Below are positions 1 through 24,504 of a stretch of DNA of 64,000 nucleotides, piece after piece. Both the position numbers and the translations under genes were made by a program. The number at the start of each line of letters is the position of its first letter. Position 1 is the first letter of the stretch. The DNA is from Gracilaria domingensis (Eukaryota; Rhodophyta; Florideophyceae; Gracilariales; Gracilariaceae). Where the stretch lies: contig VCMS01000168.1 of assembly GCA_022539475.1 (NCBI GenBank), positions 55,651-119,650 on the forward strand, given 5' to 3'. The notes below the pieces were generated by a model. It did no database searches and was not told the origin of the DNA. It saw only the letters and a list, made by a program, of their open reading frames with translations.

Positions 1-277
1 ATTTATTATTCTGTGCCAGATTGGACAAGTGTACAGCGTACAACGTTGCGAAACCACAGGTTTATAACCAGTGGTAGATAGTACGAGACGTACACCCTTG
101 TGTTAAGGTCGACGTGTACCTACGTTCCTTTTTGAACGAAAGCACGTGATTTAAACTCAAAATATATTCTCCGCTCTCAGCTTGACGTCAAACCTGACTG
201 TCGCACGACCTCTTTCTCCCCTCGCACGACCTTCTTTCGCCGTCTTTGTCGTCGTTTCTCCTTCATTTCTTCTTCCC

Positions 278-2709
278 ATGGTCTACTACTGTACACATAA
301 GAAGCGTGGGTGCCCGTTCGTTACTCGCCGAGGAGTGTTATCTCTTCAACAGCATGTCAATTATTTCCCGTTTCGTCTGCAAGCCGCGCTGGAAGACGAC
401 TATAGGCGGCCCATTCGAAGAAGCAAGCGTCTCAAGCTTTCTGCGGCCGCGCCCGCATCTTCCAAAACAGTCACTGCCCCTTGTCGCCTTCCTGAGCCTC
501 AGGTGTCCGAAGACATCGTTGACCCCACTCCGTGCGCCCCTCCCATTCCGGACACTTCGCATTGTGTTTCTTCTTCCCCGGGTCCCGCGGCATTAGAGCG
601 AGAACACGGAAGCAGTTCCCGCCCAGTGCCTTCTGAGGAGGCCCTCGGTGATTTGCATATGGATTATCTCACGGTTTGTCTGGCTTCAGTAGCTTCCAAC
701 CTTGGTCATCGTGAGGCAGACGAGCTAATTGGGCTACTTTGGGACCCGCGATTCTCGCGAAAGCGATTCAAAGAGACCATAACAAGTTCCAAGCGCTGCA
801 CAGAACTGAAGAACGCCATTTTCGAACGATACGCCTCAAAAGACGGTTTCAATCGAAGAACTGTCTCGCCCGAAGGATGCAAGTTCAGCGCCACCCTCTA
901 CACGAGAGACCCCGTTCACACACTTGTTAAACAGCTCCAGTTGGCTAACAACGAAAACATATTCTTCCACCCTATACCTCAGACCCACTTCACGAAAATA
1001 TCTCACCCTATGTCCGGCTCTCTCGCAAGAGACGCCACCTCAAAACTTAAGGAAATGGTCATGGGCTCTTTGGATAGTAGAATAGTGTGGTACTCCCAAG
1101 AAATACGTTACAGTGAATCTTTCGTAGGTCTTATGCAGGTATACACCGATAAGTCTTCAACCACTCTAAAGCAAACAACGGTTACCGCCTATCCTCTTCA
1201 CCTCATATTTCTCAACTTCTCCGACGATCTACGCCGTAAGTGCATCCGTGATGACCTCACAGTAGTGGCATACTTCCCTACCACACTGATCGAGGTTTCC
1301 GCATCTGAAGCAGACGCAATGCCATTCGTTTCTAGCAAGTCTCTACGCGAGTCCAGGATGCAAATCCTTCAAGAATCTCTTCGTCAAGTCCTGGAGCCCA
1401 TTCTAAATCTCACGCAGAAAGGTTTTCAGTTCATCGGCGAAGACAAACTAAGTCGAGTGTGCCATCCTCTGCTTGCAAGTTATTGTGCGGATATTCCTGA
1501 GGCTAAGGACATTCTGTCCATTCTTCATGGGACCAAAACAGAAAGCCCGTGTCATAGATGCAAAGCCCCTCGCTCATCTTTATGCAGTCCTGTTCCCACC
1601 TCATTCAACGAACGTTCTCAAAAGCACACGAAAAGCATCCGAAAGACATACACAGCTATCTTGCAACATGCACAAAAGACGAGGGGGAAAGACGTCCACG
1701 TCGTGCGAGGGAGAGGAGATCTCAGGCGGATATTCTGATGCGTTCAAATTCCATATCTCTCATTCCTTCGTTCCTCGAAACTCCCGTAAGCCTTGGAATG
1801 AACCCGGAATTGTCTCCATACAGTCGGTTCTCATTCGAACCGTTACACAACTTGCATCTCGGCATCTCGAAGCTGATAAAAACGGCCACAATCGAGAGAA
1901 CGCAGTCAGACACCCTGTGCACCACAATAGGAACATCTGCATCGCGTTCATTTCGAACGATACGCACCCAACTCCTCAACCATGCAAACGCAATTCTAGC
2001 TGCCATAGAACGCGAATCTCCTGCCAAAGGTTTACATATCGATTTCTCCACGCAGGAAAAAGGCAAATCTTTGAATGGTATCTTCACGAAAGACGGTCTC
2101 CGTGGAATGCTGGAGGCCAAAAACTACAAAGCACTTGACATGGTCTTCCCCTTCATAAGAGCATTCTTTGACATATGCTGTGGAGAACAGGACGTTGCCC
2201 CAATCACAACCGTCTTCTCTCAGTACTCGGACTTGCTTTCGACCTTATTCAGATACAATCGTGACCCGTATTGGACTGAAAGCTCTCTCCTGTGTCTTAG
2301 CCTGGAGATTGAAGCCTTCAAGCGTTCCGCAACAGAGACTCTGGCGGATTTTCATCCCTCTAGACTGGGAACTCTGAAGTTTCATCTTCTCGATCATCTC
2401 ATGGACGAAATTCGCCGTCTGGGAAGTATCAAGTACTACGACGCAGCCATATACGAACATGCACACCTGCGTTTTAAGAGACACTACAAAAAGACGTCCA
2501 GAAGAACAGCAACGGCTGTGGAGGTGACTATTCGCTTCATTGAGCACGGACATGTTAGAAAGCAATGGAATGGCAATACTCCTTACCAGAGTAATCCAGG
2601 TTTACCAGGAACTTCCCCTTCCTCGCATTCACCAACGAAACAATCCCTAATAGACCCCAATCTTCGGCTCACACTGTCAATAAAAAATTGTTCTTTCACA
2701 GTGAGGTAA
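278..2709 (+). pseudogene. Plavaka/CACTA-like DDE transposase, copy 1, frameshifted
   Basis: The ATG at 278 begins a Cys/His finger-like stretch (YYCTHKKRGCPF, then a His about 14 residues on). The middle resembles Plavaka-type transposases: a candidate first catalytic Asp in VYTDKSSTT, a segment VVAYFPTTLIEV, and a Cys pair SPCHRCKAP. The C-terminal half (from about 1690 in another frame) has LHNLHLGISK, LLDHLMDEIRRLGSIKYYD and a HLRFKRHYKKTSRR block, as in this superfamily. The N-terminal frame stops at 1738 and the C-terminal frame is open from 1558 to 2709. Comparison with copy 2, which is continuous here, places a one-base deletion near 1675-1690. The upstream 180 bp is also repeated at 55,621-55,800. 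The family call rests on motif memory, not a search. Confidence 0.7.
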
Positions 2710-3386
2710 AGTTTTCCGTTCGACGGCGTTCGATATCCAAATGTAGCCTCTCTCACGTCATTACCAAGAACCTTAGTCCAATCTTCCGTTGTCGTTCTAT
2801 AATTACGAAACTCGCTGGAATTGGTCCTCAAGACATGTTGCCTGACATCCCCCAGAACATTCTTTAAACACAGAGGTAGTTGGGCAAACTTCTATGTAAA
2901 CAGTTTCTGTCGCTGGCCACCCCTTGACACATCCGTACTTAGAAGGCTCACAACCGTCAACACCCAAGCGTCCAAACGTGCGAGCAATAGTATTGTGCCA
3001 TCTAAAAAGGTGCCCGTATCCTTGTCTTCCACATCACACCCAATAAACTCCTTTAGTACTTGTACCCCGACACGGTTTCCGAAGAACAAGTCTTGATCTT
3101 CCGTCGGCACATCCTCGACATTATCCGCATTGGAGTACTTTAGACGAACAAATGGGGCTTTTCTCCACCATGAAGTGTTCGGTACACCGTTTTCGTCGAG
3201 ACGCAGTATGTTCTCCTGCGCTTCCTTCAACTGCATTGTGAGTTCGTCAGCATTCTCTTCTACCAGCTTTGTTTTTCTCCAAATCAGATCGTAACCCAGG
3301 AGCAGAAATAGTTTATCCGTCTTATTTCTCTTCAGAACGCCCACGACGTCACTCATGGTTTGCGGCATTCTCTGCCTGAGGCACAT
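2583..3386 (-). pseudogene. In-frame continuation of the coiled-coil gene beyond two stop codons
   Basis: After the TAA at 3399-3401 the frame of the upstream 500-residue ORF stays open. It reads MSDVVGVLKRNKTDKLFLLL and then NVEDVPTEDQDLFFGNRVG, up to a TAG at 2892-2894. It continues in the same frame through FRNYRTTTEDWTKVLG to a final stop near 2583. No frameshift is needed, so this looks like one former ORF of about 770 codons cut by two nonsense codons, or a readthrough product. The last 130 bp overlap the transposase C-terminal ORF on the opposite strand. No known domain recognised. Confidence 0.5.
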
Positions 3387-3398
3387 ATCTGCACAAAG

Positions 3399-4901
3399 TT
3401 ACGGTTTACACTTGTCGGTAAGAGATGCTTTTCTAATACCTTCCCAGCTCAACTCCTTCAACTCGCTTTCAACCATTTTCTTCAGCAAAGCATCTGGCCC
3501 CCCCTCTACCGATGGTGTGAACATGCCAAAACTGCCTAAGAGCTCCACGGGGTTTTTAGGAACCATGTATGAACCACTTTCCTCCGGCTCAATAAGCCCT
3601 TTCCCACTCTCAGCTGCGTCTTCCACCTTCTCGGCACGGTTACCCCAATTTCGGGTGAGCGACTCACCTTCGAGCCATATCTCACTTCTTTCTCTCCTTG
3701 CCCACGTCAGCATGTTGTGATACACTGCTTGAGCAACCACTCGAAACTCGTCGCACACCTCAATTTTATGCTTCTTTCGACCTGTCTGCCCAGGTTCACC
3801 AGCACGTGTACTCCTATCTCCCTCCTGTTTCAGTGCCCCTCTTAGCCCTTCAATGACTAGATCCTTCTCTTCAAGCCTCTTTTTCAAAGCCGTACTCTGC
3901 TCTTGGGCGACCTTCACTAGAATTCCCCGAACCATCAAGTCCTCTTGTAGCGTCTTAACCTTTTCTTTCAAGCAATTCAGTTCATTTAAAAGATCAGGTC
4001 TGTTCATAGAGCTTGAATTCACACCAGTTTGGATATCTTCCGTTATTTCCCTAGCTTCTTCGGCGACAGGCCCCGGTAATGCCGCAGGATTCGGTGTTAT
4101 TTCGTTATCGGAACTATCCTCATGTGCCATAGCCTTAGCCACGAGAGGCTGCAGGCGTTCTGTGTCCACCCTTGGCACGGCTCCGAGCTCCAACTCCCGT
4201 GTATGTCCTCCTCCATGGCATGGTATATCAGATGAATTGGGCCTCGTACGAGCTGCAACGGCCCCCGTTCTGGAAAGAGGGGAAGGTCGAAAAGTAACTC
4301 GTCTATCAGTTGTCTCTCGATTTCTTATTGTGTTTCTCCCTTGTCCGGACCCATTGCGAGGCATGATACGATTCATAGCGGCCCCAGTTCTAGAAGAGAG
4401 GGATGGACGTGACGATCTTAATATACTAGGACTCTCACGACTTCTCGTCATTGTCCCTTGTTGTCCAGATCCACTGGGCGGCGTAACCCGCGCCCCAGTA
4501 GCTCCGGTCTTCGATATCGGCCGGGGACATGAAGGTTTTGGTGTCATACGAACCTCTTCGGTTCCAGTTGTCATGCCCTCCTGTCCTGATCCGCTGGGCC
4601 GAGTTACCTCATCTTCTTGAGGAGCAGAGACAGATGCACGATTTGCATTATCGGCAGTTGACGGCACGACATCGTTCGCTGATCCACGAATTCTTGACGC
4701 AATCCCGGAAGACGCTCCGCTGCGAGATGGGCGAGAGAGTCCTGTAGAAGGACGCCCACTGACTCTCTCCTTCGTCGAGGACGACTTCCGTTTAGGAAGT
4801 GCGGTGCTTGTAGCCTGATTCGTATCATCCGATGCTCTTCTCTTCTTCTGTCCACTCTTGTTCCGCTGCGTACTATTTCGCTTTCTCGGCGTTATACCCA
4901 T
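3399..4901 (-). CDS. Basic repeat and coiled-coil protein of the transposon, unknown function
   Basis: 500 residues starting at the ATG at 4901. The N-terminal 80 residues are Lys/Arg/Ser-rich (PRKRNSTQRNKSGQKKRR), suggesting nuclear location or nucleic-acid binding. Residues of about 95-215 hold three diverged copies of a roughly 40-residue repeat, each with a SGSGQ core and ending in a RTGA or KTGA motif. Residues of about 300-365 form a predicted coiled coil (LNELNCLKEKVKTLQEDL and LKKRLEEKDLVIEGLRGALK). The C-terminus is mixed alpha/beta-like and unrecognised. Between this gene and the SET gene to its right is a G-run of about 30 bp. A DNA-binding accessory protein of the transposon would fit, but that is inference from context only. 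Confidence 0.6.
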   Translation of the reverse strand: MGITPRKRNSTQRNKSGQKKRRASDDTNQATSTALPKRKSSSTKERVSGRPSTGLSRPSRSGASSGIASRIRGSANDVVPSTADNANRASVSAPQEDEVTRPSGSGQEGMTTGTEEVRMTPKPSCPRPISKTGATGARVTPPSGSGQQGTMTRSRESPSILRSSRPSLSSRTGAAMNRIMPRNGSGQGRNTIRNRETTDRRVTFRPSPLSRTGAVAARTRPNSSDIPCHGGGHTRELELGAVPRVDTERLQPLVAKAMAHEDSSDNEITPNPAALPGPVAEEAREITEDIQTGVNSSSMNRPDLLNELNCLKEKVKTLQEDLMVRGILVKVAQEQSTALKKRLEEKDLVIEGLRGALKQEGDRSTRAGEPGQTGRKKHKIEVCDEFRVVAQAVYHNMLTWARRERSEIWLEGESLTRNWGNRAEKVEDAAESGKGLIEPEESGSYMVPKNPVELLGSFGMFTPSVEGGPDALLKKMVESELKELSWEGIRKASLTDKCKP

Positions 4902-4938
4902 GCTGTGGAGATAAACAGGGTAATGAAACGAAATTGTT

Positions 4939-4969
4939 GGGGAGGGGGGGAGGGGGTGGGGGGGGGGGG
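4939..4969 (+). repeat. Interrupted G-run in front of the coiled-coil gene
   Basis: Thirty-one bases that are G except for two A and one T. It sits 38 bp upstream of the ATG at 4901 on the minus strand, so the coding-strand promoter or leader reads as a C-run. It has the composition of a G-quadruplex former. Similar G-runs recur in the hairpin arrays at 8.65 kb and 59.2-59.4 kb. Confidence 0.75.
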
Positions 4970-5152
4970 TGCATGGTTCAGATATTCCGGGAGACTCCGC
5001 AGTTCCTGCTTTTTAGGAATTTGAGGTGCCCAATGGGTCGCAAATATCGCCGTTACAGATGAAGAGCTCCAGTGTACATGTACAACAACGCGTATTGCAG
5101 GCAGCTGCAACACTCACAAGCATATTTACTTTCTATTCGCTACTGAACTCAT

Positions 5153-5878
5153 CTATTGCTCCAATGTCAGAGCCCAGTCCCAGGCGTACTGCTCTCCGTA
5201 GTCGAAATACAACTCTTCGCCCTTCTCAATATCTCTTACTGCTCTACAACGAAGTAGAGCATAGTTAGAAAGGTCTGACTTGAACTGTATCACGGACTTC
5301 GCTTCCACCACCTGCACATTGGCAGTTCGAGTCCTGTTTGACCGGGGCTCCGATAAATCGGGATCCCCGGCATGATATCCGGCGTCGTTAATTTGGCCCC
5401 CGATACAAAACGGCGCCGGGAAAATGTAGACTTCGCTCTCCTTTTTATCCTGAGTCTGTCCTGGTCTGTTCCTCAGGTGCAGAAACTCCGAACGAGTCAC
5501 AGTGACCATCATAGAAAACAACTTGTACCGCACAGGAGTTGCTCCGAGAAATCCACTTCCATACGTTAAGTGTCTCTCCTTCCGGTTCGTCAGATCCATG
5601 TATACCAAAGTTCCATAAAAATGACAAATAGTTTCCCCAGCCAATATCTTATGTTCCGTGAACACCCCCATACAAGCACGCGAATGTCGAATCTTAGAAG
5701 ATGCTACATGTAAGCGATAGCGATTGGCTTCAACAGTCAACAACATATGCATATCCATTAGATTCAGAGCTCCTCGGTACTTCTCGTCCCAAAGATCTAC
5801 AGTATGCTGTCCACACTTGTCGACAAACTCCCAGTCCTTCCAGTTTCTTCCTAGGAACTGAGTAATATGTGCAGGCAT
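5153..5878 (-). CDS. SET-domain protein (putative lysine methyltransferase) of the transposon
   Basis: 241 residues. The SET core is visible: RACMGVFTEHKILAGETICH (first SET strands), then INDAGYHAGDPD where SET proteins have their Asn-His active-site region, a following NVQVVEA strand, and the C-terminal RDIEKGEELYFDYGEQY with its catalytic Tyr. SET enzymes transfer methyl from S-adenosylmethionine to lysine, usually on histones. I see no pre-SET or post-SET cysteine clusters. The start is ATG 5878, preceded in frame by GTG and the TAA that ends the methyltransferase, so the two genes are in the same frame with a two-codon junction. Product could be separate or a readthrough fusion. Substrate unknown. 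The stop is TAG at 5153-5155. Confidence 0.8.
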   Translation of the reverse strand: MPAHITQFLGRNWKDWEFVDKCGQHTVDLWDEKYRGALNLMDMHMLLTVEANRYRLHVASSKIRHSRACMGVFTEHKILAGETICHFYGTLVYMDLTNRKERHLTYGSGFLGATPVRYKLFSMMVTVTRSEFLHLRNRPGQTQDKKESEVYIFPAPFCIGGQINDAGYHAGDPDLSEPRSNRTRTANVQVVEAKSVIQFKSDLSNYALLRCRAVRDIEKGEELYFDYGEQYAWDWALTLEQ

Positions 5879-5881
5879 CAC

Positions 5882-8290
5882 TTAGTACTGAGGGTATCCA
5901 AATGGAGCCTCCCATTCTAGCCGACCTCGGTCCCGATGTGGAACCCGTTCATAAGTCGTTGAAGCAGCATCCACCACCTCCTGTTCAACCACGATGTCAT
6001 CCTTCCCCGCGCGACGAACTTCGGCCATAAGAGTCGTTATATTATGCTTTGCATGGCTGAAGCATGGCCTATTCTTCTCGCCCCCTAAGAACTTCCTATG
6101 CGTTGTCAGCGATAGGCACGCCATACCCGTAGAAAAAGTTCCCGCAAACATGTCCATGACAAGATCACCCGGTCTTTTGAACCGACATATCAACTCTTTC
6201 ATCAACTCCCTGGACTTCTGCTCCGGTCTTATGTGCTGCACACTTGGTACTGAACTACCTGGCTCATTTACCTTCCATGTCAACCACTCCCCCGCTCTCG
6301 GTTTCGGCACCCGGTCAATTACATTCCTGTTAGCCGGGAAAGTAGAAGGAATGAAATTGTTCTCCTCAAATGGAGTAAGACTGGGGTCCTCCGATGGTCG
6401 CAATCCATGCTTCACCCCATGAACGGCGTACTCCGTTACGGGCTGTATCCCAAACTTCCGTGGATTCCCTCCAACATTACTTCGATCCCGGATGAACACC
6501 AGTGGATTCCCATCCACTTTAAACGAAGGCATGAGTTCTGGCTTACCTTCGCTTCCAGCTTCATCTTTCGTACTCGCCGTTTCCGAAAGTATCCTGTGCC
6601 TAACATGAAACTGTGCCATGGCACAGAATATAATGAAATGCTCACCTGACCGAAGCGCGGAACTTATTAAGTCAGCCGTACTGATCATGTCATCCTCACT
6701 GAAGACATCGTGAGCACTATTCCGTTTGTTCCTCTTCCTTCGAGTGTTAAAGGGAGGGTCTGTTTGGACAAGCTGTGCCTCACCCCATAAAATCTCACTC
6801 TGATTCAGAAATATTTCATGTGTGTGCCTCAGGTCCTTCATGTCACAGTTGTACGCTACAAAGTGCGACTTTCTCATCCCCTTCCACACCTTGTCCATAT
6901 TCATTCGAAGAAGACTGGATATCCCCTTCATGGGCGCCTCAATACCAGTCTTTTGGATGTTGTAACCGGCAACCCAAGATTCATGCTCCGCAAGATTCAC
7001 CGGCTTCTCGAAGTCGTCGCTATCGGAGCTCACGAGGTTCATATACTCTCGACGAGGTGGGGATGGGGCAGACTTTGTCGAAGAAGGTTCGGCATTACCG
7101 GAAGTTTTAGGAGTTTTCGTCAGTTCAATATCGGGTTTCGCGTGATTGCCGACATGGAACCCTGCCGCATGACGCATATTCTGTATCGGTTTCCATAGCA
7201 ACTCCGAAAACTTCTGAAATCGAGCGGGGAACTCACCGGAGTCAGAACCAGATACGGTATCCATCCGTATCTCCGAAAACTCTATCCAGTTCCTCATCTG
7301 ATCAGCCCGTAAGCTATAGAGGCTATCGTGGGTGCATATGGTTTCGAGGTCTGTCAAAAATTCCTTAGCCAGTATTCGGAGGTTTGTATCGCATTCATCA
7401 CTCAAGGTCTCCACCGATCCAGTAGTACTGCTCTGTGGCACACCCTGTGTGTTGAATCGAGTACTCTGGCTCGGCGGGGCATAACCAGACTCCCGTGTCT
7501 CTAGCGCTGTATACTTCAACTTCTGCATATTCATGTAAATGTATGGTTTCACCATGTGCTGAACGTTCGTGTATCCAAGATGAGCCGCAAAACAACTCCA
7601 TGCCCATACGACCTCACTGATAGCGAATCCCAGTCGATCACAGTTGTCTTTGGAGAACGACGTAAAAGTGGGTATGTACACAGATGGTGCATAGTTCACT
7701 TTTCGTTTCTTTTTCGGTTGTTTCTTCTTCATCATTCTGATGTTGTCCTTCTCTCCCATTATGTGGCCGAGGTATGATAAGTATATAACGACCTCAAATG
7801 GGTTCACAGCTGTTGGTTGGATGAACACTGTCGTCTTCAGAACCTGTTTTCTCCTGGTCATGAAATAACCAACCAGGCATCGCACCGGTAGGTATATACC
7901 CATATCCATAGAGAGAAGGAAAAAATCGCGCAGTCTCTGGTCCTCATCCCCGTCCTTCTTGTCAAGAAGCTTCGTTACAAGATATCGTTGCTCAACAGGT
8001 TTGTTATTCACAACACTGTTTTGCAGCTGTTGCAGTGTCAAGTTCTGCAGGTTCTTGGAGTTAGTGGCCTCCTCAAACATCTTCCTTGCCTCCGGAATAT
8101 CCTTATAGTTCTCCGCGGAGAACTCTATTAGCCCTCTAAACCCCACGTCCCGTGGCCGATCAGGGCCTCCATCGCTGTTTGCCAAAGCATCGCGAAGAAC
8201 CAAGAAAAGTCTGACATATGCATGGAACGCCGGAGGCGGAGCACTCATGTCGATAGGATGTATCTCCTCTCCATCATCGGTGGAATCCAT
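5882..8290 (-). CDS. Beta-class DNA methyltransferase (N6-adenine or N4-cytosine)
   Basis: 802 residues from the ATG at 8290 (a GTG lies 5 codons upstream). The catalytic motif IV is QTDPPFN, about residue 511-517. The AdoMet-binding motif I is LVMDMFAGTFSTG, about residue 711-723, preceded by RPEQKSRELMKELI. Motif IV before motif I with the target-recognition region between them is the beta-class permutation of bacterial N6A/N4C methyltransferases. DPPF or DPPY alone does not separate adenine from cytosine-N4 activity. The N-terminal 500 residues are extra and unrecognised, with a Lys-rich stretch (MKKKQPKKKRKVNY) resembling a nuclear localisation signal. It starts at the symmetric divergent promoter and its stop (TAA 5882-5884) is followed in frame by the SET gene. 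Catalytic motifs look intact. Confidence 0.85.
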   Translation of the reverse strand: MDSTDDGEEIHPIDMSAPPPAFHAYVRLFLVLRDALANSDGGPDRPRDVGFRGLIEFSAENYKDIPEARKMFEEATNSKNLQNLTLQQLQNSVVNNKPVEQRYLVTKLLDKKDGDEDQRLRDFFLLSMDMGIYLPVRCLVGYFMTRRKQVLKTTVFIQPTAVNPFEVVIYLSYLGHIMGEKDNIRMMKKKQPKKKRKVNYAPSVYIPTFTSFSKDNCDRLGFAISEVVWAWSCFAAHLGYTNVQHMVKPYIYMNMQKLKYTALETRESGYAPPSQSTRFNTQGVPQSSTTGSVETLSDECDTNLRILAKEFLTDLETICTHDSLYSLRADQMRNWIEFSEIRMDTVSGSDSGEFPARFQKFSELLWKPIQNMRHAAGFHVGNHAKPDIELTKTPKTSGNAEPSSTKSAPSPPRREYMNLVSSDSDDFEKPVNLAEHESWVAGYNIQKTGIEAPMKGISSLLRMNMDKVWKGMRKSHFVAYNCDMKDLRHTHEIFLNQSEILWGEAQLVQTDPPFNTRRKRNKRNSAHDVFSEDDMISTADLISSALRSGEHFIIFCAMAQFHVRHRILSETASTKDEAGSEGKPELMPSFKVDGNPLVFIRDRSNVGGNPRKFGIQPVTEYAVHGVKHGLRPSEDPSLTPFEENNFIPSTFPANRNVIDRVPKPRAGEWLTWKVNEPGSSVPSVQHIRPEQKSRELMKELICRFKRPGDLVMDMFAGTFSTGMACLSLTTHRKFLGGEKNRPCFSHAKHNITTLMAEVRRAGKDDIVVEQEVVDAASTTYERVPHRDRGRLEWEAPFGYPQY

Positions 8291-8307
8291 CGCTTCAGCG
8301 CACACAA

Positions 8308-9208
8308 CGGAGGCGAGCCTTTAAATGGCGACTTACGCTGGGAACCCCCGCTTTCGGCAGCTCCTCCCTGCGCACTGCCAGTCTCGTCCGTGTCCGTGTC
8401 CGCTCCCTTCTGAGGTCTGTGTCCGTGCCGCTTCGAGCGGGTGCGATAGTGTCGCGTGTCGGCCACGTCGCGATTCAGAGCTATTGCAAAGGACGTGTAT
8501 TGTGCTAATAGTCGCGGACCAAGTGGGTGTGAAGCGCTAGTTTTCTCTAGTTTGCTATATGTGCACGGCGTGTGCAGCGAAATCACTGCCGGAAGTGCCG
8601 GGAGGAGTGTTTTGGGAGGCCTCCGGAGGGTGCCAGAATGTGGCCAGAACGTGCCCGCGGGCGGGGGGGGGGGGGGGGGTCGGTCGTGTTAGGGTAGGTA
8701 CCCTAACACGACCGGACCGCCCCGTCCGCCGGCACGTTTTGGGCGATTTTTTGAAAAATGTGCGATTTTATGCCCGAGGGCGGGTGGTTCCGGTCGTGTC
8801 AGGGTACCTACCCTAACACGACCGACACCCCCCCACCCGCGGGCACGTTCTGGCCACATTCCAGCGCCTTCCCGGGACCTCCCAAAACACGCCGCTTCGC
8901 AGTGATTTCGCTACACCCGGCCGCCGGTACGTTGGCGCCGCTGTCCACGTGTATTGGCGGGAGTAGGCTGTACATGAAAGTGAATGAGTGTACTCTTGAC
9001 TACTATGCAAAGCATTTGAAGAGCACGATTAGAGAGCGCGACCATTGCTCGCGTGAGTCATCATTGCGCGAACTCCACGACTCTAAAGCGTACAATCAGC
9101 GCGCGAGCGGCCACGGACAGGACACGGACGAGACTGGCAGTGCGCTGGGAGGAGCTGCCAAAAGCGAGGGTGCCCAGCGTAAGTCGCCATTTGAAGGCTC
9201 GCCTCCGT
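8308..9208. promoter_or_regulatory. Symmetric divergent promoter region with inverted-repeat arms
   Basis: The 89-bp arm next to the methyltransferase gene (8308-8396) is repeated as its reverse complement next to the ParB-like gene (9119-9208). Both arms contain AAATGGCGACTTACGCTGGG reading away from the gene, then a block rich in GGCAGCTCC and GTCTCGTCCGTGTCC. The methyltransferase ATG (8290) lies 18 bp outside one arm and the ParB ATG (9272) 64 bp outside the other. Between the arms lies the foldback/hairpin repeat. I infer a bidirectional promoter giving both transcription units the same control sequences. No classical TATA box is evident, although a TTTAAATGG motif is present in the left arm. 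Confidence 0.65.
8570..8916. repeat. Foldback element with two G-rich telomere-like hairpins (family A copy)
   Basis: The outer arms, about 100 bp each, are inverted copies: GTGTGCAGCGAAATCACTGC on the left against GCAGTGATTTCGCTACAC on the right. Matching blocks around GTGTTTTGGGAGG and TGTGGCCAGAACGTGCCCGC follow. Inside are two hairpins, 8681-8714 and 8790-8824, with stems of about 16 bp whose core is CGTGTTAGGGTA. They are separated by an AT-rich spacer containing GATTTTTTGAAAAATG. A run of 18 G precedes the first hairpin. The same family recurs at 59,080-59,589. Confidence 0.8.
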
Positions 9209-9271
9209 TCTTGTATCGTCCAGAGCGAGCGTATTGTTGATATACACCTTTCACTGCAATAGCTGTTCAAC

Positions 9272-11431
9272 ATGAAGCCAACTCGTGTTCGAAAGCGTAC
9301 GCAAAGCGTGACTCCTCGCACTCGGCGGAGCACGCGATCATTGCAAGGTGGAATGCGGGTTTCTCTGCAGATGGATATTGAGAATGAAGGAAATGTGATA
9401 GTCGGGGAAGCGTTGTTGCATGGAATTGGAAGTGTTCTACGCCGCGAGTTGAACGGGAAGCAATTGGACCCAGGTCTTGTGGTGGTTCATAATATTCTCA
9501 TCAGTCGAAGCGGTCAGACGTTCTACCCTTACCCGGCGGAGGGCCTGGATCTTCCACAATATATCCAGGATCTCCGGACGGCCGCTCCTTGGGATGAGAA
9601 AATGATGGAACCGGTGGCAGCCAGCATTCCGGCGTCGAAGCGAGAAACGGTGAGCGCTATGAGTGAGGTGATGACGCCGACAAGCCGCACGGAGCCAATT
9701 CGAAGTTCATCAACACCGAGAGGTAGCGCATCAGTAGCACCTCCGCGGGCAGGTCCGTCGTCTGTTACGAAGCGGTCTATGGAGACGAGAGCATCCCCAG
9801 CTACGAAGCGGACAGGTCAAACAAAGTCTACCTCCGCTACGAAGCCCACTGCGTCGAAAAGGGCTTCTCCTGCGATGAATCAGACCGTCGACACAAGGGG
9901 ATCTTCTGCGTCGAAACAGACGGTTCAGCAGGGGACGGCTGTGCAAGAGGAGGAAGATGAGATCATGAACGGTCCCCTTCCAGACGCGGATGCGCAATCC
10001 GCGCAAGGAGCTGGTCCATCTGTACCCCAAACTGCACCAGAAACTGCGGAGCAGCAGGACGATGACGTTGTGCTTCTGTCCGCAAGAATGGCACGTTCAA
10101 GTGTTTCTGGCGAGCGGTCTGGAACACAAGGGACACCTACTCGGAGCAAGACGTACAGACGAATTCGTCAGAAGGTACCAAAAATGAACCTCAATCAGTA
10201 CCGGATGGTTGTTGTTACTGTTGACATCACTCTGGTGGACACTCCGCCCAATTTACTCCGTGGAGTAAGTAAACGCCACGTTGAAGCCCTTGTGAAGAGT
10301 ATGGAGGAGCGGGGGATATTGCAGTCGATGGGTTCTCCAGTGGTGGCCTTACAAGATGCTACTACGGGAGAGAGGGATACTGACAAGGGACGCCTAACGA
10401 AGAAGTGCTTCATTGTAGATGGTTTGCATCGTCTGAAAGCTATACAATATTTGGCAGCGACTGGTGCACCGAAGTGGAAGCGATTAGCCAAGTTTTGGCG
10501 TTGCAATCTGCTGATACGAAGAGATGGGAGGCCCATTGGGATGAAGGAATTGTTATGTGTTGCTTCGTACCTCAATGAGTCGACGAGTACGATGCGAAGG
10601 ATGATGTTTGCAGACAAGATACACTCTATAGTTAGTGTGGTCGCCATTCTAATTGAAGATGTTGAGGGGGTGACGCCGGCAGACGTGGATCCTGCAGAAG
10701 TGACAGAAGTGTTGAAGGAGAGCAAACTGATTGGGAGTGTGCAAGAGCGTCAGTATCTGAGATATGCCAATGTCGCCCTGCAACTCATGTCTCGTGAGGA
10801 AATGCTGACCCATTTCGAGAATATATGTGAGAGTGTGAGTGACATAGGTCTCACACATCTGTCCCATACTCCGCTATATGTTTTCGATGCCGAGGAGTTT
10901 TCCTTCATTCTTGATTGTCTTCAGATGTTTCTATTGAAGGGCAAGTCGACAAAGACAAAGCAATGGAAAAGATTTGAGGAGGTTCGAGGTTTCTTTTATG
11001 ATAGAGCAGTGTCTCTGTTCCGCTCGACTCGAGCAGTGAGGAATGAACTAAACGAGGAAGAGTCCATGGAAGTGTTCCTGAAACGCGAAGTCAGTCTTTC
11101 TGCTCCATCGAATGAAGATGACATTGAAGACCCAGATAACAACGCCGCTGTGTATCAGTTCCTTTTGGGACAAGTTGTGAACTTTAATACATTGCCGCGT
11201 GTTCGGAGCAGGACGAACTCAATTAGAACTGCCACGACTTCGGTTCAGAATCGATTGCGGACGATGCTCAAGGTAATTCCGCCACCCGCACCAGTGAAGC
11301 AGTTCGTGACGAAGAGAAGGACTCCCGCTGCTGCTGCTGCAACATCTGCCAGTGAAGAAGGGGAGCCGCGAAGAAGTGCACGAGAACGGGCGCAGGTGAG
11401 TTATAGGGAAATTGAGCACGGCCGAAATTGA
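9272..11431 (+). CDS. ParB-like domain protein of the transposon
   Basis: 719 residues from the ATG at 9272. The first 290 residues are low-complexity, rich in Thr, Ser, Arg and Lys with repeated SATKRT/SASKQT-like units. Residues of about 305-430 look like a ParB/Srx-type fold: a VSKRHVEALVKSMEERGI helix region and the signature FIVDGLHRLKAIQYL, comparable to the GERRL/DGHHR motif of ParB-like nucleases. The C-terminal part (to RSARERAQVSYREIEHG) is unrecognised and basic. ParB-like domains bind or cut DNA or act as CTP switches, and occur in phages beside DNA methyltransferases. The ORF ends at TGA 11429-11431. The same frame stays open for 28 codons (with a PPRKKRRK basic patch) into the next ORF, so a single fusion protein is possible. 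Confidence 0.65.
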   Translation: MKPTRVRKRTQSVTPRTRRSTRSLQGGMRVSLQMDIENEGNVIVGEALLHGIGSVLRRELNGKQLDPGLVVVHNILISRSGQTFYPYPAEGLDLPQYIQDLRTAAPWDEKMMEPVAASIPASKRETVSAMSEVMTPTSRTEPIRSSSTPRGSASVAPPRAGPSSVTKRSMETRASPATKRTGQTKSTSATKPTASKRASPAMNQTVDTRGSSASKQTVQQGTAVQEEEDEIMNGPLPDADAQSAQGAGPSVPQTAPETAEQQDDDVVLLSARMARSSVSGERSGTQGTPTRSKTYRRIRQKVPKMNLNQYRMVVVTVDITLVDTPPNLLRGVSKRHVEALVKSMEERGILQSMGSPVVALQDATTGERDTDKGRLTKKCFIVDGLHRLKAIQYLAATGAPKWKRLAKFWRCNLLIRRDGRPIGMKELLCVASYLNESTSTMRRMMFADKIHSIVSVVAILIEDVEGVTPADVDPAEVTEVLKESKLIGSVQERQYLRYANVALQLMSREEMLTHFENICESVSDIGLTHLSHTPLYVFDAEEFSFILDCLQMFLLKGKSTKTKQWKRFEEVRGFFYDRAVSLFRSTRAVRNELNEEESMEVFLKREVSLSAPSNEDDIEDPDNNAAVYQFLLGQVVNFNTLPRVRSRTNSIRTATTSVQNRLRTMLKVIPPPAPVKQFVTKRRTPAAAAATSASEEGEPRRSARERAQVSYREIEHGRN

Positions 11432-11515
11432 GGTGCCATAGAAGTTCTGGATAGCTCTGAAGAAGAACAGCGGGCCCCGCCGAGGAAGAAACGGAGAAAG
11501 ACTTTCACAGAACAG

Positions 11516-13186
11516 ATGAGATCTACTCTGAACAGCATGACACCGGATGACCTGCTGTCTCAACTAAATGAACATGTGCTGAGAGGAAGGTCGATGAAAG
11601 TTCAGTTCGTGGCATTGGAAGAGGGAGCGAATGCAGAGAACGCAGGCAGTTCTGCATTTGTGCATGACGAAGAGCTTCTTGCGGTGACAGTTCTACGGGT
11701 TGTCACCGTCGAGAAAAATGCTGCGCCAGACGATCAACAAGAGACAGGAGGGGGGTCATTTGATGAGTTACCTACAGCTCTTCTGGAATCTGAGGAGCAC
11801 GGACTTGTTCGGGGAGACCCATATGATGGCCCACCGAACCCATCATGGTGCGGGTATGCCAGGCTGAGACCGCAGGAATGGCAAGGGAAGAACGTAATTG
11901 AGCACAAGGACCCCTGGCTTAGAGTCATTCACTTGCAGAAGGGACATAGGTCGGAGCTGCTAAGTGTCTCGAATCTCAGAGATGTACACCATCTTGTCTT
12001 TTGGCACGCTGCAAGGGCTGAACATCGCCTACGGGCGGAGACATTTGGTATGCAGTATCCTCGTACTCGACCGACAGGTATGGATGATGAGGGGGTGCTG
12101 TGGGTTGCTGCGAAGGAGCATGACGAATTTGGGCAAATGTTCTTCGCCCGAATGCAAGCTGAGCTAAGGCAGAATGGATATTGCGTGCTTGATGGCTTTG
12201 CGACTGATAATGGTGTCCCTAAATGGGAGGAGTTGGAAGAAGTTCGGGAGTTCGGAGATGTGTCGGGGAAGTTGGTGGACTTCTTCGAGAATGAGTATGG
12301 AGCGATGCCGGATATACGGAAAGGAGAGGAACAGAAGTCGTTTATTCAAATAATCAACGATGATGAAGGATGGAAGGACGGTAGCGATGGACCATTTCAG
12401 GGGAGAGTGATGTCGACACGTTGGGGTACGGTGGAGAAGCCGGAGGATAATGAGGAGCTCAGGTGGGTTGTAAGGTCGCGTGCTTTACTTGATGTTCGAA
12501 TGGGTACAATTGCTGCGGCTTTGGGACTATGGGACAATGAAAGGGAAGCTGTGAAGATGTACACTCCGAAAACTGGTGGTCGATTTCTGGGGACGACGAG
12601 AAAGTGCAAGCGCCAGACGCTGCACACCGACTTCAGTGGTCTGGTTACGAAGGAAACAATGAATGCTGGCAACCCCGGATACTTTGTAATGGCCTCCGGG
12701 AAAGAGGGCTTTCCTCTCTGGGTGAGCGCTGGAAGCCATCAACTGGTGGGGATGAACAACCAACAGTTGCGAGTGATGTCGGAGGTGTATCCAGCGAAGA
12801 AGATAATCATCCCACCGTACTCTGTATTCGTGGGCCGTGGTGATGTGACACATGCTGGAGCAAGTGGGAAGGACAAGGTGGATAGGCCCGAGTCTATGGA
12901 TTTGCTGGTTAGATACCACATGTACATGGTACCAGAGGGCTACGCACTACCTGATGCTGTTCATCGGGTACGGGATTTCCGACCCACGTTTGTCAATGGA
13001 GACGAAGAGGAGGAGGCGGAGGATGAACTGTTGTCCGTTAAGGAGGGTGGGGCGGTTGACATGGAAGGAGACCAAGTGGTCGTGGAGATTGGTGTGGAAG
13101 CGAAGACCGGTAGAACTGAAGTGCTCGAGAGTAGTAGTGATGACGATTTGCCAATAATGAGGCTGCGAGCGCCTCGAAGTGGATGA
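11516..13186 (+). CDS. 2-oxoglutarate/Fe(II)-dependent dioxygenase of the transposon
   Basis: 556 residues from the ATG at 11516, in the same frame as the preceding ParB-like ORF. The double-stranded beta-helix motifs are visible. NGYCVLDGFATD marks the domain start at about residue 220. The iron ligands are HTD in RQTLHTDFSG (about residue 370-372) and His in GRGDVTHAGA (about residue 446). A following Arg in LLVRYHMYM is a candidate 2OG-carboxylate binder. All three iron ligands appear intact. The family oxidises diverse substrates; the setting with a DNA methyltransferase suggests nucleic-acid base oxidation or demethylation, but AlkB, TET/JBP and PhyH-like options cannot be separated by eye. 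The acidic C-terminus follows the catalytic core. Confidence 0.75.
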   Translation: MRSTLNSMTPDDLLSQLNEHVLRGRSMKVQFVALEEGANAENAGSSAFVHDEELLAVTVLRVVTVEKNAAPDDQQETGGGSFDELPTALLESEEHGLVRGDPYDGPPNPSWCGYARLRPQEWQGKNVIEHKDPWLRVIHLQKGHRSELLSVSNLRDVHHLVFWHAARAEHRLRAETFGMQYPRTRPTGMDDEGVLWVAAKEHDEFGQMFFARMQAELRQNGYCVLDGFATDNGVPKWEELEEVREFGDVSGKLVDFFENEYGAMPDIRKGEEQKSFIQIINDDEGWKDGSDGPFQGRVMSTRWGTVEKPEDNEELRWVVRSRALLDVRMGTIAAALGLWDNEREAVKMYTPKTGGRFLGTTRKCKRQTLHTDFSGLVTKETMNAGNPGYFVMASGKEGFPLWVSAGSHQLVGMNNQQLRVMSEVYPAKKIIIPPYSVFVGRGDVTHAGASGKDKVDRPESMDLLVRYHMYMVPEGYALPDAVHRVRDFRPTFVNGDEEEEAEDELLSVKEGGAVDMEGDQVVVEIGVEAKTGRTEVLESSSDDDLPIMRLRAPRSG

Positions 13187-13450
13187 GAATGAGATGATTA
13201 GTAAATTATGAATGTCTTGCGAGTGTTAAGAGTAGTATACTATTGCAAGGCTATACATATGAACATAGAAAAGGTGCGGTAGGCTAGTAATTGAACAAAT
13301 GTCAAAAGTCTTTGGTCCAGTTGCGTCTAATTGCAACATGCCACATGCTCGGTATCGTTAACATCATTGGTGGCACCATTCAATTCGCAATTGAACATGT
13401 AGCGTACTAACACTTCTGAAACTGCACTTAAGGTTGCTTTTAAGAGAAGT

Positions 13451-14233
13451 ATGAAACTGAGAAGTCTATGCAGTTCCTGTCTATGCGGTACTTGTGGCAG
13501 TATGGTGACTGTATTAGGAAAAATGGCAGAGGAACAGAGAGACTTGGCCGAAATTTCACCCAATACCTTGTCTAAGTTCATATATGCCAATGGTTACGGT
13601 ATATTAAGTTCCGTTGATGGAACGTTGAGAAGAGAAGGAGAGTCAATTCCAGAAGAAGTATTGAAGTGTATGAAGTTCATTGACGAACGTGTTGGTTTCG
13701 GACTTGTCACAGGGGGTGATGTGGGCGACGTGGAGAGGAAAATGGAAGGAATCGGAGACTATAAGTTTGGTGTCTCGGCGAATCATGGAGCTTTCCTCCG
13801 TTTCTCTGACGAGAGGGAAATTAAGGCTGCATTCAATGATCACACCCTTGACCACACTGTTGACGGACTACTGTTCCTGGCAAGGAATTTGAATAGGAGG
13901 CATGGTATTGTGAATGATGATGAGAAGGGGTTCGTGGAGACCAGAAGTGATAGTGGCCTTCCCAATTTCGTGTACAACAAACTGTGGCAGTGGAGAGAAG
14001 AAGTGGATTCTGCTATTGGGGACCTGTTGCAGAAGATGGATGCGTTTGTTATCTATCCCGGCGATAAAAGTTGCGAAATTGTGGACAAGCGATACACAAA
14101 AGGAAGCGGAGGAGAAAATCTTGTGGATAATGAACCGAGATTTATTGATACGGATGACGTCGTGACGTTCGGAAGTGCTTTGAGCGACGGGCCTTTGCAT
14201 GAGGTAGGCGTGTACGGCGTTCACGTCAAATAA
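13451..14233 (+). CDS. Trehalose-phosphatase-like HAD protein lacking catalytic Asp residues
   Basis: 260 residues. The order of motifs follows trehalose-6-phosphate phosphatase (HAD superfamily): YGILSSVDGTL (about residue 48-58), VGFGLVTGGDVGDVERKM, SANHGAFLRF, and near the end VVTFGSALSDGPLHEVGVYG. In active enzymes motif I is DxDGTL and the late motif is GDDxTDE. Here the nucleophile Asp is Ser and the GDD is GSA. I infer a pseudoenzyme or a decaying gene that has kept its frame. Start choice is uncertain, since an internal Met (MVTVLGKMAEEQ) is also plausible. It converges with the next gene, 61 bp apart. A reading as a divergent Cof-type HAD is possible. Confidence 0.55.
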   Translation: MKLRSLCSSCLCGTCGSMVTVLGKMAEEQRDLAEISPNTLSKFIYANGYGILSSVDGTLRREGESIPEEVLKCMKFIDERVGFGLVTGGDVGDVERKMEGIGDYKFGVSANHGAFLRFSDEREIKAAFNDHTLDHTVDGLLFLARNLNRRHGIVNDDEKGFVETRSDSGLPNFVYNKLWQWREEVDSAIGDLLQKMDAFVIYPGDKSCEIVDKRYTKGSGGENLVDNEPRFIDTDDVVTFGSALSDGPLHEVGVYGVHVK

Positions 14234-14294
14234 GATTGTATCCCGGGTGGAGTACACAACCTGTTCGAAAGCGTGGAGGATGTACATTCGACAA

Positions 14295-15182
14295 TTATGC
14301 TGGTGGCTCTGTTGTACTGCTACGAGGAAAAGCAGCACGACAAAAAACACCATGAATCATAAAAGGCTGTTGAGATATATACGACCCTTTTATTACTGAG
14401 ATTCCGTATTCTAACTGAATATTAGAGACATCGTAGTACTTGAAACAAATTCCAAGAGCATTTCTAAACCATTGACACTTGCATTTTCTGTACCCGTACA
14501 GTTCTGCCACCCTTCTGATGGTCTCATGCACGTCCTCCACTACAATGTTTCTTTCTTGGCGGGAAAAGTCGTAGAAGTACGCGTTCCTAAACTGAAAGTC
14601 GGAGAAAGAAGTAGGGAAGCCAACGAGAGTTTTCCCATATGCAAGAAGTCGCCCAACGGTCTCTTCCAGGTTGAAAGTAGTACCTGTCTTAAGCGAAACT
14701 ATCTTCAACAGCTCTTTCATTATTGTGAGCACAACCGTACTGCACTCCGTAGCGACTATGTCCATAGGAATGAAACCTCTTGAGGCCCCGACGATGTTGA
14801 ACGCTGATAGCCACACGAGCTTCTCATAATAGCTTACGAGAAATGTGTCTTCGTCGACAACCCCGCAAGTGAGACCCATAGACCTAAACCTGTCTGCAAC
14901 GTTGGAGGCCCACTTTCCTGTTGCGACAGTGAGACCATCCGGACCTTGAGGAGTGACACCATCCTGCGGAGCTGCGTTTCTTGAGGGGACACCAACGTAT
15001 AGGACAACTTTTGAACATTTGTCCACACCGAGCTTCGAAACCAATGGTATGATATCTCCATTCTGGAAGAAAACGAGATTTTCTCTGAGCCAATAAGGGC
15101 AAGCCTGAATTACGGTCTTCAGGGTGTTCGTTCTTCCACAAACTAGTATCGGTACATCAGAAAGATGAGAGGTAGCAGCCAT
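14295..15182 (-). CDS. Ketopantoate-reductase-like protein, N-terminus probably broken
   Basis: 295 residues from the ATG at 15182. The pattern VPILVCGRTN, LVFFQNGDIIP, GLTVATGKWASNVADR and YEKLVWLSAFNIVGASRG matches a plant and algal dehydrogenase-like family related to ketopantoate reductase and 6-phosphogluconate dehydrogenase. The usual N-terminal nucleotide-binding loop is not in this frame. Upstream, in another frame from ATG 15358, the sequence reads AVIVERGRIGTMLANEED where the family has a GGGRxG loop, so two Gly are replaced and a frameshift lies near 15,185-15,215. A 25-nt GT-AG stretch there does not restore the frame. The C-terminal body is intact. Likely a pseudogene or an enzyme without cofactor binding. 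Confidence 0.6.
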   Translation of the reverse strand: MAATSHLSDVPILVCGRTNTLKTVIQACPYWLRENLVFFQNGDIIPLVSKLGVDKCSKVVLYVGVPSRNAAPQDGVTPQGPDGLTVATGKWASNVADRFRSMGLTCGVVDEDTFLVSYYEKLVWLSAFNIVGASRGFIPMDIVATECSTVVLTIMKELLKIVSLKTGTTFNLEETVGRLLAYGKTLVGFPTSFSDFQFRNAYFYDFSRQERNIVVEDVHETIRRVAELYGYRKCKCQWFRNALGICFKYYDVSNIQLEYGISVIKGSYISQQPFMIHGVFCRAAFPRSSTTEPPA

Positions 15183-15769
15183 GCTGCACAATTCGTGTGC
15201 GGAATCACCATATCTTCTTCGTTCGCCAGCATGGTACCTATACGCCCCCTTTCAACAATAACGGCCCGAGTCCTTCCGGCGGGAGATGAGGCCTGAGAGA
15301 CGTCAGAGTATCTGGGACTCGGAGGCAGAGTCGGAAGCATGTCGGACTGGGAGTTCATTGTAAGGGTTCGATTGTTTTTGTGTGACGATAAAAATGGAAG
15401 ATGAGGGGGAGAACTGCTGGGGTAAAGAGTGATACTTAAGTACAAACGGTTGGGAAGCGCAGAACAGGAACATGGTTCACTTTGTGAAAGTGAGCGAAAT
15501 GTATGATATGTGATTGTACTGAATGAATGATAGGGCTTGTATGAGACGACAAGCCACAAAGTGTGATGATGTTTTATGAAAAGTAGGTGGAAGAGTAGAA
15601 AGTGTACAATGAATGAAACTGATTTCGAACCTGAGTTGTAAAGTAGTTGTAAAGTACGAGTTACGGGGAGCTAGAATACAGGATGAAAGGAGCCATTTTG
15701 GCTTCACAAATGACGTGAACGGGTTCTATAGCTTCACTCGGATTGCTATAATCTTCTTTTTTATTGAGG

Positions 15770-15777
15770 TATAAAAG
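15770..15777 (+). promoter_or_regulatory. TATA box in front of the epimerase reading frame
   Basis: TATAAAAG lies 63 bp upstream of the ATG at 15833, at normal TATA spacing for a short leader. Its preservation beside a stop-containing gene is notable. Confidence 0.6.
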
Positions 15778-15832
15778 GGGGGTGTGTCTGGGAAGGACGG
15801 GTTTAGCGTTACTGAAGTTATCGATGTTCAGT

Positions 15833-16531
15833 ATGGATTCTCGTTTAATTATAGCGCCATCAATTTTGGCTTCAGACTTTGCTCGCCTTTCAGATGAAGC
15901 AAGTGCAATGGAAGAGGCTGGAGCGTAGTGGCTGCATATAGATGTAATGGATGGTCACTTTGTGGCGAACCTTACTGTTGGACCGCCTGTTGTCAAAGCG
16001 TTGCGGAGGCATACGAAATTGTTTTTGGACTGTCATCTGATGGTATCAGATCCTGGGCGCTGGATAAAAGACCTTGCAGAAGCAGGCGCAGACGGAGTCA
16101 CATTTCATATCGAGAGTGGGGCTAAGGGACTAGAAAAGTGCGAGGTACCAACTGAGGAGGTAAACGTGGTGTTGAAGGAATTATGTAACCGAATTAAAAG
16201 GATCGGAATGCAGGTTGGAGTTGTGTTGCGCCCGAATACGTCTATAAAGGTCGTAGAAGCACTTATGAAGTAAGGAATTGTAGACATGTTATTGTTGATG
16301 ACGGTGGAGCCAGGGTTTGGAGGACAGGCGTTTATGGAGGGTGTTCTTGATAAGGTGCGAAATGCAAGGGAGTTGTACCCAAGAATATGGATATAGGTGG
16401 ATGGGGGTATTGGACTGAGTACTGTGAAAGGAGTAGTGAAGGCCGGTGCAAACATTTCAGTTGCAGGATCTGCCATCTTTGGCTCGAGTAACCGAGCTCA
16501 TGTCATAGCTGGTTTTCGAAAGGTTGGTTAG
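15833..16531 (+). pseudogene. RPE: Ribulose-phosphate 3-epimerase with three in-frame stops
   Basis: One frame of 232 codons covers a whole epimerase: IIAPSILASDFARL at the start, [51 protein letters not shown] and GANISVAGSAIFG at the end. The enzyme interconverts ribulose-5-phosphate and xylulose-5-phosphate. The metal and catalytic residues (His and Asp of LHIDVMDGH, His of DCH, Asp of VDGG) are all present. Stops are TAG at 15926-15928, TAA at 16271-16273 and TAG at 16394-16396. There are no frameshifts or indels, and all three positions could have been Glu by a single G-to-T change. An in-frame ATG also lies at 15824. Either a young pseudogene or a readthrough gene; I call it a pseudogene. 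Confidence 0.85.
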
Positions 16532-16614
16532 AGATAGTAGCATAAAATTATTGTTTATTATATTGTTACGTTTACGTGTTATTACGACTATATTCTCCGT
16601 CTCCATTTGAGATG

Positions 16615-16945: not shown

Positions 16946-17171
16946 TTATGTGAGCGCGAAAGAGGAGACAGAGAGGTGGCGCTTAAGTAGTGGAAGGTGC
17001 GGAGGTGTACAATAGATGTTTTGGCGGGAAATGGGATGAGGGAAACAGGGACAATCATGGTGCTGGATATAGCCCGTGTGGTTGGACAGTGGGGGTGGAC
17101 AGCACAGTTTAGCTCGATTGCACTGTATCGCAGCGGAAACTTCGATCCAACTACTACTTCTTCTTCTGAAG

Positions 17172-24474: not shown

Positions 24475-24504
24475 CGGCGCCCTTGCGGGGAATAACTTTA
24501 ACTT

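Follow-up and report, generated by a model that had tools for sequence, protein, structure and literature searches.

The genes noted in the first 13 kb of a 64,000-nucleotide stretch of Gracilaria domingensis DNA (the window) are enclosed by one Plavaka-type DNA transposon. The genes include a DNA methyltransferase (MTase) fused to a SET domain and, transcribed divergently from it, a ParB-like protein fused to a putative 2OG dioxygenase. From the sequence we propose that a large red-algal Plavaka-type family has a chromatin-marking module among its own genes and may use it to mark its own chromatin, a reading that we hold tentatively, at slightly short of an even chance.

Extent, ends and copies of the element

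The element is about 22.8 kb long in general and 19.7 kb in the window copy (C168:54534-74219, 19,686 bp, + strand), which begins 1,117 bp beyond the left edge of the window and occupies window positions 1..18569. The extent given in a preliminary description of this DNA (1..13200) was thus wrong, and further ORFs lie inside the element to the right of the '2OG' gene. Limits were set by sharp homology ends against the copies on contigs C20, C69, C108 and C157, with unrelated flanks, and the window copy has a TA/TA target duplication. The terminal inverted repeats are imperfect (termini CGTCTGT..ACAGACG); the right terminus (18552..18569, CTTTGCAGAACACAGACG, no strand assigned) matches the left end in inverted orientation at 12 of the first 15 terminal positions. 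Genome-wide, 563 left and 578 right ends were matched.

The target duplications of 2 bp (or 2-3 bp) that characterize Plavaka were found, as 2-bp duplications, at 13 of 22 insertions, where about 1/16 would be expected by chance. These insertions comprise 19 end pairs (11 duplicated), assigned and sized by the end coordinates among the first 100 left and first 100 right matches listed, together with the window copy (duplicated), C20 (duplicated) and C157 (not duplicated). Duplications flank 10 of the 13 insertions below 16 kb and 3 of the 9 above 19 kb, and their scarcity in the larger class counts against a module carried by the element. The three cargo-bearing insertions with matching duplications are the window copy (TA), C20 (CT) and C6:458664-480015 (TC), which contains the 2OG-like gene at C6:471936. 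Both C20 and C157 hold the whole gene set between one pair of ends, and no further ends turned up between genes of the element. Transposon carriage of the gene set, as first suggested, is therefore supported by the single end pair around it and the three duplication-flanked insertions. The further copies, terminal repeats and target duplications that the preliminary description had proposed to look for were all found, and neither of the patterns it named as contrary, a transposase that never accompanies the cargo or element ends between the genes, was observed.

The transposase (182..2709, + strand) was recognized correctly at the outset: it matches the Plavaka transposase family PF18759 (E 2e-19), above the Pfam cut-off in this family (family 1) and in a second one (family 2). 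It is split by a frameshift into ORFs 182-1738 and 1558-2709 in the window, and is intact on C591 (1,091 aa). The red-algal ends do not match the fungal Plavaka termini (PlavakaA TGT..ACA; PlavakaB CATCA..TGATG), which places the element by its ends in neither fungal clade, and the family name therefore rests on the transposase domain. Besides the split transposase, damage to the window copy includes one stop at each of two fusion junctions; frameshift counts in the copy comparison are inflated where copies hold N runs or messy alignments. One deletion derivative, the 10.3 kb C8 copy, retains a damaged transposase region, the promoter and half of the ParB-like gene, the cargo being otherwise gone. 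Seven of the 19 end pairs span 10.1-10.9 kb by their coordinates among the matches listed, C8 being the one that was read. Deletion derivatives that lack cargo, as C8 does, also count against the carried module.

A coiled-coil-like protein without a Pfam family (2892..4901, - strand, split here into 2892-3386 and 3399-4901) follows the transposase and has a counterpart in the same place in family 2 (38% identical). The convergent 3' overlap described earlier was confirmed in the C591 copy, where the coil ORF (L026:71-2140, + strand) and the transposase ORF (L026:2137-5412, - strand) overlap by 4 bp. On the right lie a HAD-like hydrolase ORF (13451..14233, + strand; PF08282, 23.9 bits, cut-off 20.9), a Rossmann-like ORF named by eye (14295..15191, - strand; no Pfam family, pN/pS 1.37), which is doubtful as a real gene as read, and, near the right end, a second coiled-coil-like ORF common to C20 and C157 (17076..18101, + strand; no Pfam family above cut-off). 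Neither tRNA genes nor Rfam families were found in the window.

Two gene fusions and their shared promoter

The methyltransferase half of MTase-SET (5882..8305, - strand) matches PF01555 (E 3.2e-12) and has the beta-class motif order with the motif DPPF, and the SET half (5153..5881, - strand) matches PF00856 (E 2e-8) in the same frame, one stop lying between them. Both matches exceed the Pfam cut-offs, in agreement with the domains first named, although their description as two genes was wrong. At L002 the frame is uninterrupted over 1,055 codons and places both domains in one protein; it ends near the SET end in two of the four copies read (L002, 1,055; L008, 1,050; the others being L004 and L007), and 9 of 58 genomic matches contain a stop-free fused frame. 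The fusion is intact in three lineages that are about 28-35% identical, with both domains above cut-off in each, and motif IV reads PP[YF] across the alignment (DPPF, DPPY, EPPY). In the PDB the methyltransferase matches DpnA (1.6e-6) and CcrM (1.1e-4), and SET has no match there.

The uninterrupted ORFs, and a methylase nearest to bacterial and phage enzymes, would suit bacterial, phage or viral contamination instead of algal DNA. We reject this explanation as extremely improbable, since copies are spread over dozens of contigs and no relative was confirmed in viral contigs or prokaryote genomes. Viral-contig scans returned 66 stretches with the 2OG-like protein, 21 with the MTase-SET alignment, 27 with a deeper 2OG alignment and none with the methyltransferase, and a prokaryote genome-contig scan returned 37, none being confirmed in either case. 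A protein search with the methyltransferase gave 0 of 6,003 candidates at E <= 0.001; by tblastn it matched 57 phage records, with a coverage of 10-14% in the ten records listed.

The ParB-like part (9272..11431, + strand) and the 2OG-like part (11516..13186, + strand), also taken at first for two genes, share one frame that is split by one stop in the window copy and fused at L081 (1,305 aa). Four separate genes were thus rejected in favour of two fusions with uninterrupted frames in other copies. The ParB-like half matches phrog_3264 (E 3.6e-4; E 0.0026 with the full 1,305-aa protein) and phrog_4715 (E 0.036), and visual inspection showed a DGxHR-like motif. Pfam gave no match above cut-off, the PDB none, and phage tblastn none at E <= 1. 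The ParB identity first assigned is weakly suggested by the PHROG matches.

For the dioxygenase, a putative HTD/H/R motif is present (HTD 370-372, H446 and R466, ORF residues), but no family was matched in Pfam, PHROG or NCBIfam and no match in the PDB was credible (a single one at E 1; in another search an unrelated nucleotidase, six times at E 0.78-0.88; none with a deeper alignment). No phage match was found at E <= 1 (tblastn). In alignments the motif is HTD in the window and L084 and HTN in P0004. A first hhalign comparison with algal PhyH was not significant; a later one beat 39 of 40 shuffles, with a probability <8%. The 2OG dioxygenase reading, drawn from the motif, is unproven.

Between the two fusion genes lies a divergent promoter region (8306..9271, no strand) in which 90-nt inverted arms (8306-8395 and 9120-9209, 94% complementary) surround nested palindromes with 26-bp dyads, which bears out the symmetric promoter described before. 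Families 1 and 2 both have a palindromic divergent promoter, with different sequences. In three elements scanned, the palindromic array is confined to the promoter of the modifying genes, as for an autoregulatory operator. This arrangement, and the frequency of deletion derivatives (the seven 10.1-10.9 kb end pairs among the matches listed), would also fit marks that repress the element itself, limiting its copy number through autorepression at the palindromic promoter and making it tolerable to the host. We consider such self-repression unlikely, though a serious alternative; the large amplification to 563 left and 578 right ends speaks against it.

Gene order, constraint and proposed function

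Family 2 has the same layout as family 1 at identities of 47% (transposase), 38% (coil) and 33% (MTase-SET), and a third lineage has kept the MTase-SET fusion. In the expected order and orientation 61 gene adjacencies were counted, whereas 200 trials with random orientation gave 16.3 on average and never more than 27. Among best-scoring copies, a neighbour is listed for at least 21 of 83 transposase, 34 of 56 methyltransferase (the 58 matches minus two small fragments on C49 and C81), 19 of 78 2OG and 38 of 86 coil copies; 62 of the 83 transposase copies are without a cargo neighbour among the best-scoring matches listed. Both family-2 copies that were read have a disrupted ParB-2OG, and at L084 MTase-SET and a 2OG-like gene stand in tandem in a different layout, with no palindromes and no transposase match within the 10 kb read; both observations count against a module carried by the element.

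The L084 tandem could instead reflect a composite, in which an independent MTase-SET/ParB-2OG element was captured by a Plavaka element. The failure to find inner ends and the same layout in both Plavaka families argue against this origin, which we regard as improbable; an old capture would also be compatible with the carried module.

Shared variants are in excess at third codon positions in the methyltransferase (19/27, p 2e-4), the transposase (18/29, p 0.002) and the ParB-like part (9/14, p 0.03), and not significantly so in two non-coding controls (9/24, p 0.88; 8/16, p 0.37), which shows codon-position constraint on these three genes. For SET, 2OG, coil and HAD the shared variants are too few to prove constraint. 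A passenger set that contributes nothing to the life of the element, decaying and becoming lost, would account for the cargo-less C8 and the numerous broken copies. It is disfavoured, and we give it little credence, because MTase-SET is intact and the gene order the same in two distant families, and because the methyltransferase has a lower pN/pS than the transposase (0.39 vs 0.51) in addition to the third-position excess.

Under the carried-module reading, the ParB-like protein (or the methyltransferase) would recognize the palindromic array in the shared promoter, and MTase-SET would methylate adenine-N6 (or cytosine-N4) in the DNA of element chromatin and put a lysine mark on its histones. 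Such marks would determine how the family is expressed, most likely so as to avoid silencing or to time transposase expression, and deleted copies would be mobilized in trans. A base mark, or some other substrate, may be the target of the 2OG-like half, which is the weakest step. From its domains we infer that the element could both write and edit DNA and histone marks, as first suggested, the editing half being the weakest part. C>T changes per position in 16 copies are as frequent at CpG (0.052) as at other C/G (0.051), and 5mC-driven CpG decay was rejected; the element has a CpG observed/expected ratio of 0.93, compared with 1.10 in window 26000-52000, a slight deficit. Lacking a C>T excess, the copies bear no mutational trace of 5mC silencing against which a TET-like eraser would work. 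A more elaborate possibility, which we rate as unlikely on present grounds, is a self-contained epigenetic address system, in which a dual DNA/histone writer would work with a ParB-like oxygenase that recognizes, or spreads from, a parS-like promoter array, the array having diverged with the proteins while the architecture was kept.

These results suggest that some mobile DNA may bring its own chromatin-marking kit; if so, red algae would hold a mobile paired DNA-and-histone writer. With several diverged families and many copies in one genome, the role of transposon-borne chromatin enzymes becomes directly testable.

Relation to known systems

Fungal TET+ Plavaka and other TET+ DNA transposons are described as carrying one TET/JBP gene between TGT..ACA or CATCA..TGATG ends (Kojima 2025, PMC12730594). 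The algal element shares with them an epigenetic-enzyme cargo, a Plavaka transposase, short TIRs and 2-bp (or 2-3-bp) duplications, but differs in its red-algal host, its MTase-SET and ParB-2OG fusions and its CGTCTGT..ACAGACG ends. No TET/JBP domain was detectable in it, Pfam giving no match for the 2OG-like proteins. Phytophthora HarbingerS and MuDR elements similarly combine a DNA transposon with a SET gene, although they belong to other superfamilies and the portion of that paper concerning them mentions no DNA methylase fusion (PMC12730594). Giant Plavaka repeats of Amoebidium reach up to 50 kb, carry tyrosine recombinases and have some genes that match dinoflagellates or red algae only; unlike for the algal element, no MTase-SET is mentioned in the relevant excerpts (PMC11244446).

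In bdelloid rotifers, N4CMT and SETDB1 likewise tie a bacterial-type amino-methyltransferase to histone methylation in a eukaryote, but they are separate host proteins that silence transposons (PMC8885841), whereas the algal element carries one MTase-SET protein on a transposon. The ParB-like and adenine-methylase pairing resembles the ParB-adenine-methylase fusions of bacteria and phages (PMC5512222), the algal pair being two divergently transcribed proteins fused to 2OG-like and SET parts. Among the open-licence PMC papers listed by literature searches, none turned up with a transposon-borne DNA-methylase-SET fusion. Single epigenetic enzymes on transposons are already known; the paired methylase-SET fusion apparently sets the red-algal family apart from them.

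Fused cargo genes of the Plavaka element

The transposase of the window element (family 1) is of the Plavaka type and is intact on contig C591 (1,091 aa), where its 3' end overlaps by 4 bp that of a convergent coiled-coil-like ORF; SET and DNA methyltransferase sequences come next, on the other strand. A preliminary description had listed methyltransferase, SET, ParB-like and 2OG dioxygenase genes separately. In the window, SET and methyltransferase belong to a common frame that only one stop codon interrupts where they meet, and in a stretch of contig C465 (L002) this frame runs for 1,055 codons with no stop. Pfam places both domains within this single protein (MTase-SET), and 9 of the 58 genome matches listed have this frame length and are stop-free, by our own count. 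The ParB-like and 2OG-like parts, also separated by a stop in the window, share one frame of 1,305 aa in another stretch, L081 (ParB-2OG). Two annotated G. domingensis proteins (P0001 and P0002) join the same parts, and P0004, which is 32% identical, aligns across the junction. P0003 matches its best place in the genome at 97–99%, in two pieces because the annotation leaves out part of the frame. The stops at window 5882–5884 and 11429–11431 break both fusion genes exactly between their domains, thus making two genes look like four.

The right part of the element holds one or two HAD-like hydrolase ORFs and a coiled-coil-like ORF, along with a Rossmann-like reading frame that is doubtful. The HAD-like ORFs at window 13451–14233 and at 17876–18577 of the C20 element, both near the right end, are similar by eye and have opposite orientations.

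Among variants common to at least two family-1 copies, third codon positions account for 19 of 27 in the methyltransferase, 18 of 29 in the transposase and 9 of 14 in the ParB-like part; the same count in non-coding controls gave 9/24 and 8/16, neither significant. SET, 2OG, coiled-coil, HAD and other ORFs have at most 10 shared variant sites each, which alone is no proof of constraint. Pairwise pN/pS is 0.39 for the methyltransferase, 0.48 for ParB, 0.51 for the transposase, 0.52 for HAD1, 0.54 for both SET and 2OG, 0.63 for coil2, 0.67 for coil, 0.75 for HAD2 and 1.37 for the Rossmann-like ORF.

Ends, copies and insertion sites

The 77.9 Mb assembly (680 contigs), in which the window is C168:55651–119650, was searched, and five copies with transposase and 2OG sequences (contigs C20, C69, C157, C89 and C108) and two partial copies (C591 and C600) were compared with the window. 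Homology starts sharply at the left end, 5'-CGTCTGTCTCTTGCAG, in the window and all five fuller copies, with unrelated flanks. The right end, CTTTGCAGAACACAGACG-3', is shared by the window and C157 and differs at one base in C20; 12 of the first 15 positions match between the inverted ends. The element measures 22,840 bp in C20 and 22,805 bp in C157. The window copy (19,686 bp) lacks stretches present in C20, including the second HAD ORF. Its left end lies 1,117 bp outside the window and its right end at position 18,569, so the right limit of 13,200 proposed earlier was wrong. Genome-wide, the left end matches at 563 places (up to two mismatches) and the right end at 578 (up to one), against 0 and 2 for reversed-sequence controls.

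An identical 2-bp target duplication flanks 11 of 19 further end pairs (chance about 1 in 16), as well as the window copy (TA/TA) and C20 (CT/CT); the C157 flanks are unmatched. By size, flanks match in 10 of 13 insertions below 16 kb and in only 3 of 9 above 19 kb; since the repeat exceeds the read length, chimeric joins might account for this. An insertion at C6:458664–480015 (TC/TC) contains a 2OG-like gene, and with the window and C20 it makes three duplication-flanked insertions that hold cargo.

A 10.3-kb internally deleted copy (C8:197779–208117; L072–L073) has lost both MTase-SET and the 2OG half, and its transposase region is damaged, so such copies, if they moved, probably moved in trans. 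Lengths of 10.1–10.9 kb, about that of the C8 copy, which alone was read, occur in 7 of 19 fetched end pairs, and this derivative may therefore itself have been amplified.

Window 53816–59487 is a second, partial copy: it keeps the left end, the transposase region and some of the palindromic promoter, but no methyltransferase. On C69 (L013, about 192500–195455), the left end of one copy abuts the right part of another, in what looks like a nested insertion. Elsewhere in the window, ORFs at 23311–27509 resemble, by eye, LTR retrotransposon integrase, reverse transcriptase and protease, and a 958-aa ORF at 36161–39037 resembles, again by eye, a non-LTR reverse transcriptase.

Other families and the divergent promoter

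A domain search of the genome gave at least 150 N6_N4_Mtase matches, with 150 of 328 candidates scored, and three loci outside family 1 were read. One of these, L083 (contig C12) with L085, represents a second family whose transposase, an ORF that runs off the left side of the sequence retrieved, is also Plavaka (47% identity to family 1 over 930 aa; Pfam E 3.5e-24 on 832 aa). Next come a coiled-coil ORF (38%) and an MTase-SET that is intact at 1,055 aa (33%), then a divergent promoter and ParB-2OG (29–36% over the aligned parts), in the gene order and orientation of family 1. ParB-2OG is broken in L083 and in pieces in another copy, L082. Some of the 55 genome matches listed for the family-2 MTase-SET reach about 56–68% identity, among them C157:117646–120753, which is stop-free and covers residues 24–1053. 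The third locus, L084 (C382:5500–15499), encodes a third MTase-SET lineage, with 1,127 uninterrupted residues (identity 25% by tblastn, 28% by alignment) with a 2OG-like gene upstream in tandem on the same strand; no transposase or coiled-coil match was found within the 10 kb read.

The symmetric promoter region noticed earlier was borne out: between MTase-SET and ParB-2OG, 90-nt inverted arms flank nested palindromes. In family 1 these hold 26-bp dyads, CGTGTTAGGGTA-GG-TACCCTAACACG, whose half-sites vary in number from copy to copy and, in a scan of three elements (the window copy, C20 and C157), are confined to this region. In the same place, each of the two family-2 copies read carries inverted arms of 169–183 bp with 96-bp palindromes of other sequence; L084 has no such arms or palindromes. 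We interpret the palindromes as a putative operator of either MTase-SET or ParB-2OG.

Predicted function and known relatives

The DPPF/DPPY motif of MTase-SET presumably indicates adenine-N6 (or cytosine-N4) methylation, and we take the SET domain to predict lysine methylation. The 2OG-like part, assigned by motif reading, has no match in protein families or the PDB; aligned with an algal PhyH protein by hhalign it outscores 39 of 40 shuffled controls, though with a probability below 8%. C>T changes among copies are not raised at CpG (0.052, versus 0.051 elsewhere), although the element is slightly poorer in CpG (0.93) than window 26000–52000 (1.10). We therefore favour the reading that the element would mark itself, by amino-methylation of a base together with a histone mark, over one in which it would erase 5mC.

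Searches of the open-licence literature listed no MTase-SET fusion carried by a transposon. Related systems have been described: TET/JBP genes are carried by fungal transposons, Plavaka included (Kojima 2025, PMC12730594), SET genes are named in oomycete Harbinger and MuDR elements (PMC12730594), ParB–adenine-methylase fusions are known from bacteria and mobile elements (PMC5512222), and giant Plavaka repeats occur in Amoebidium (PMC11244446). In bdelloids, by contrast, N4CMT and SETDB1 are proteins of the host (PMC8885841).
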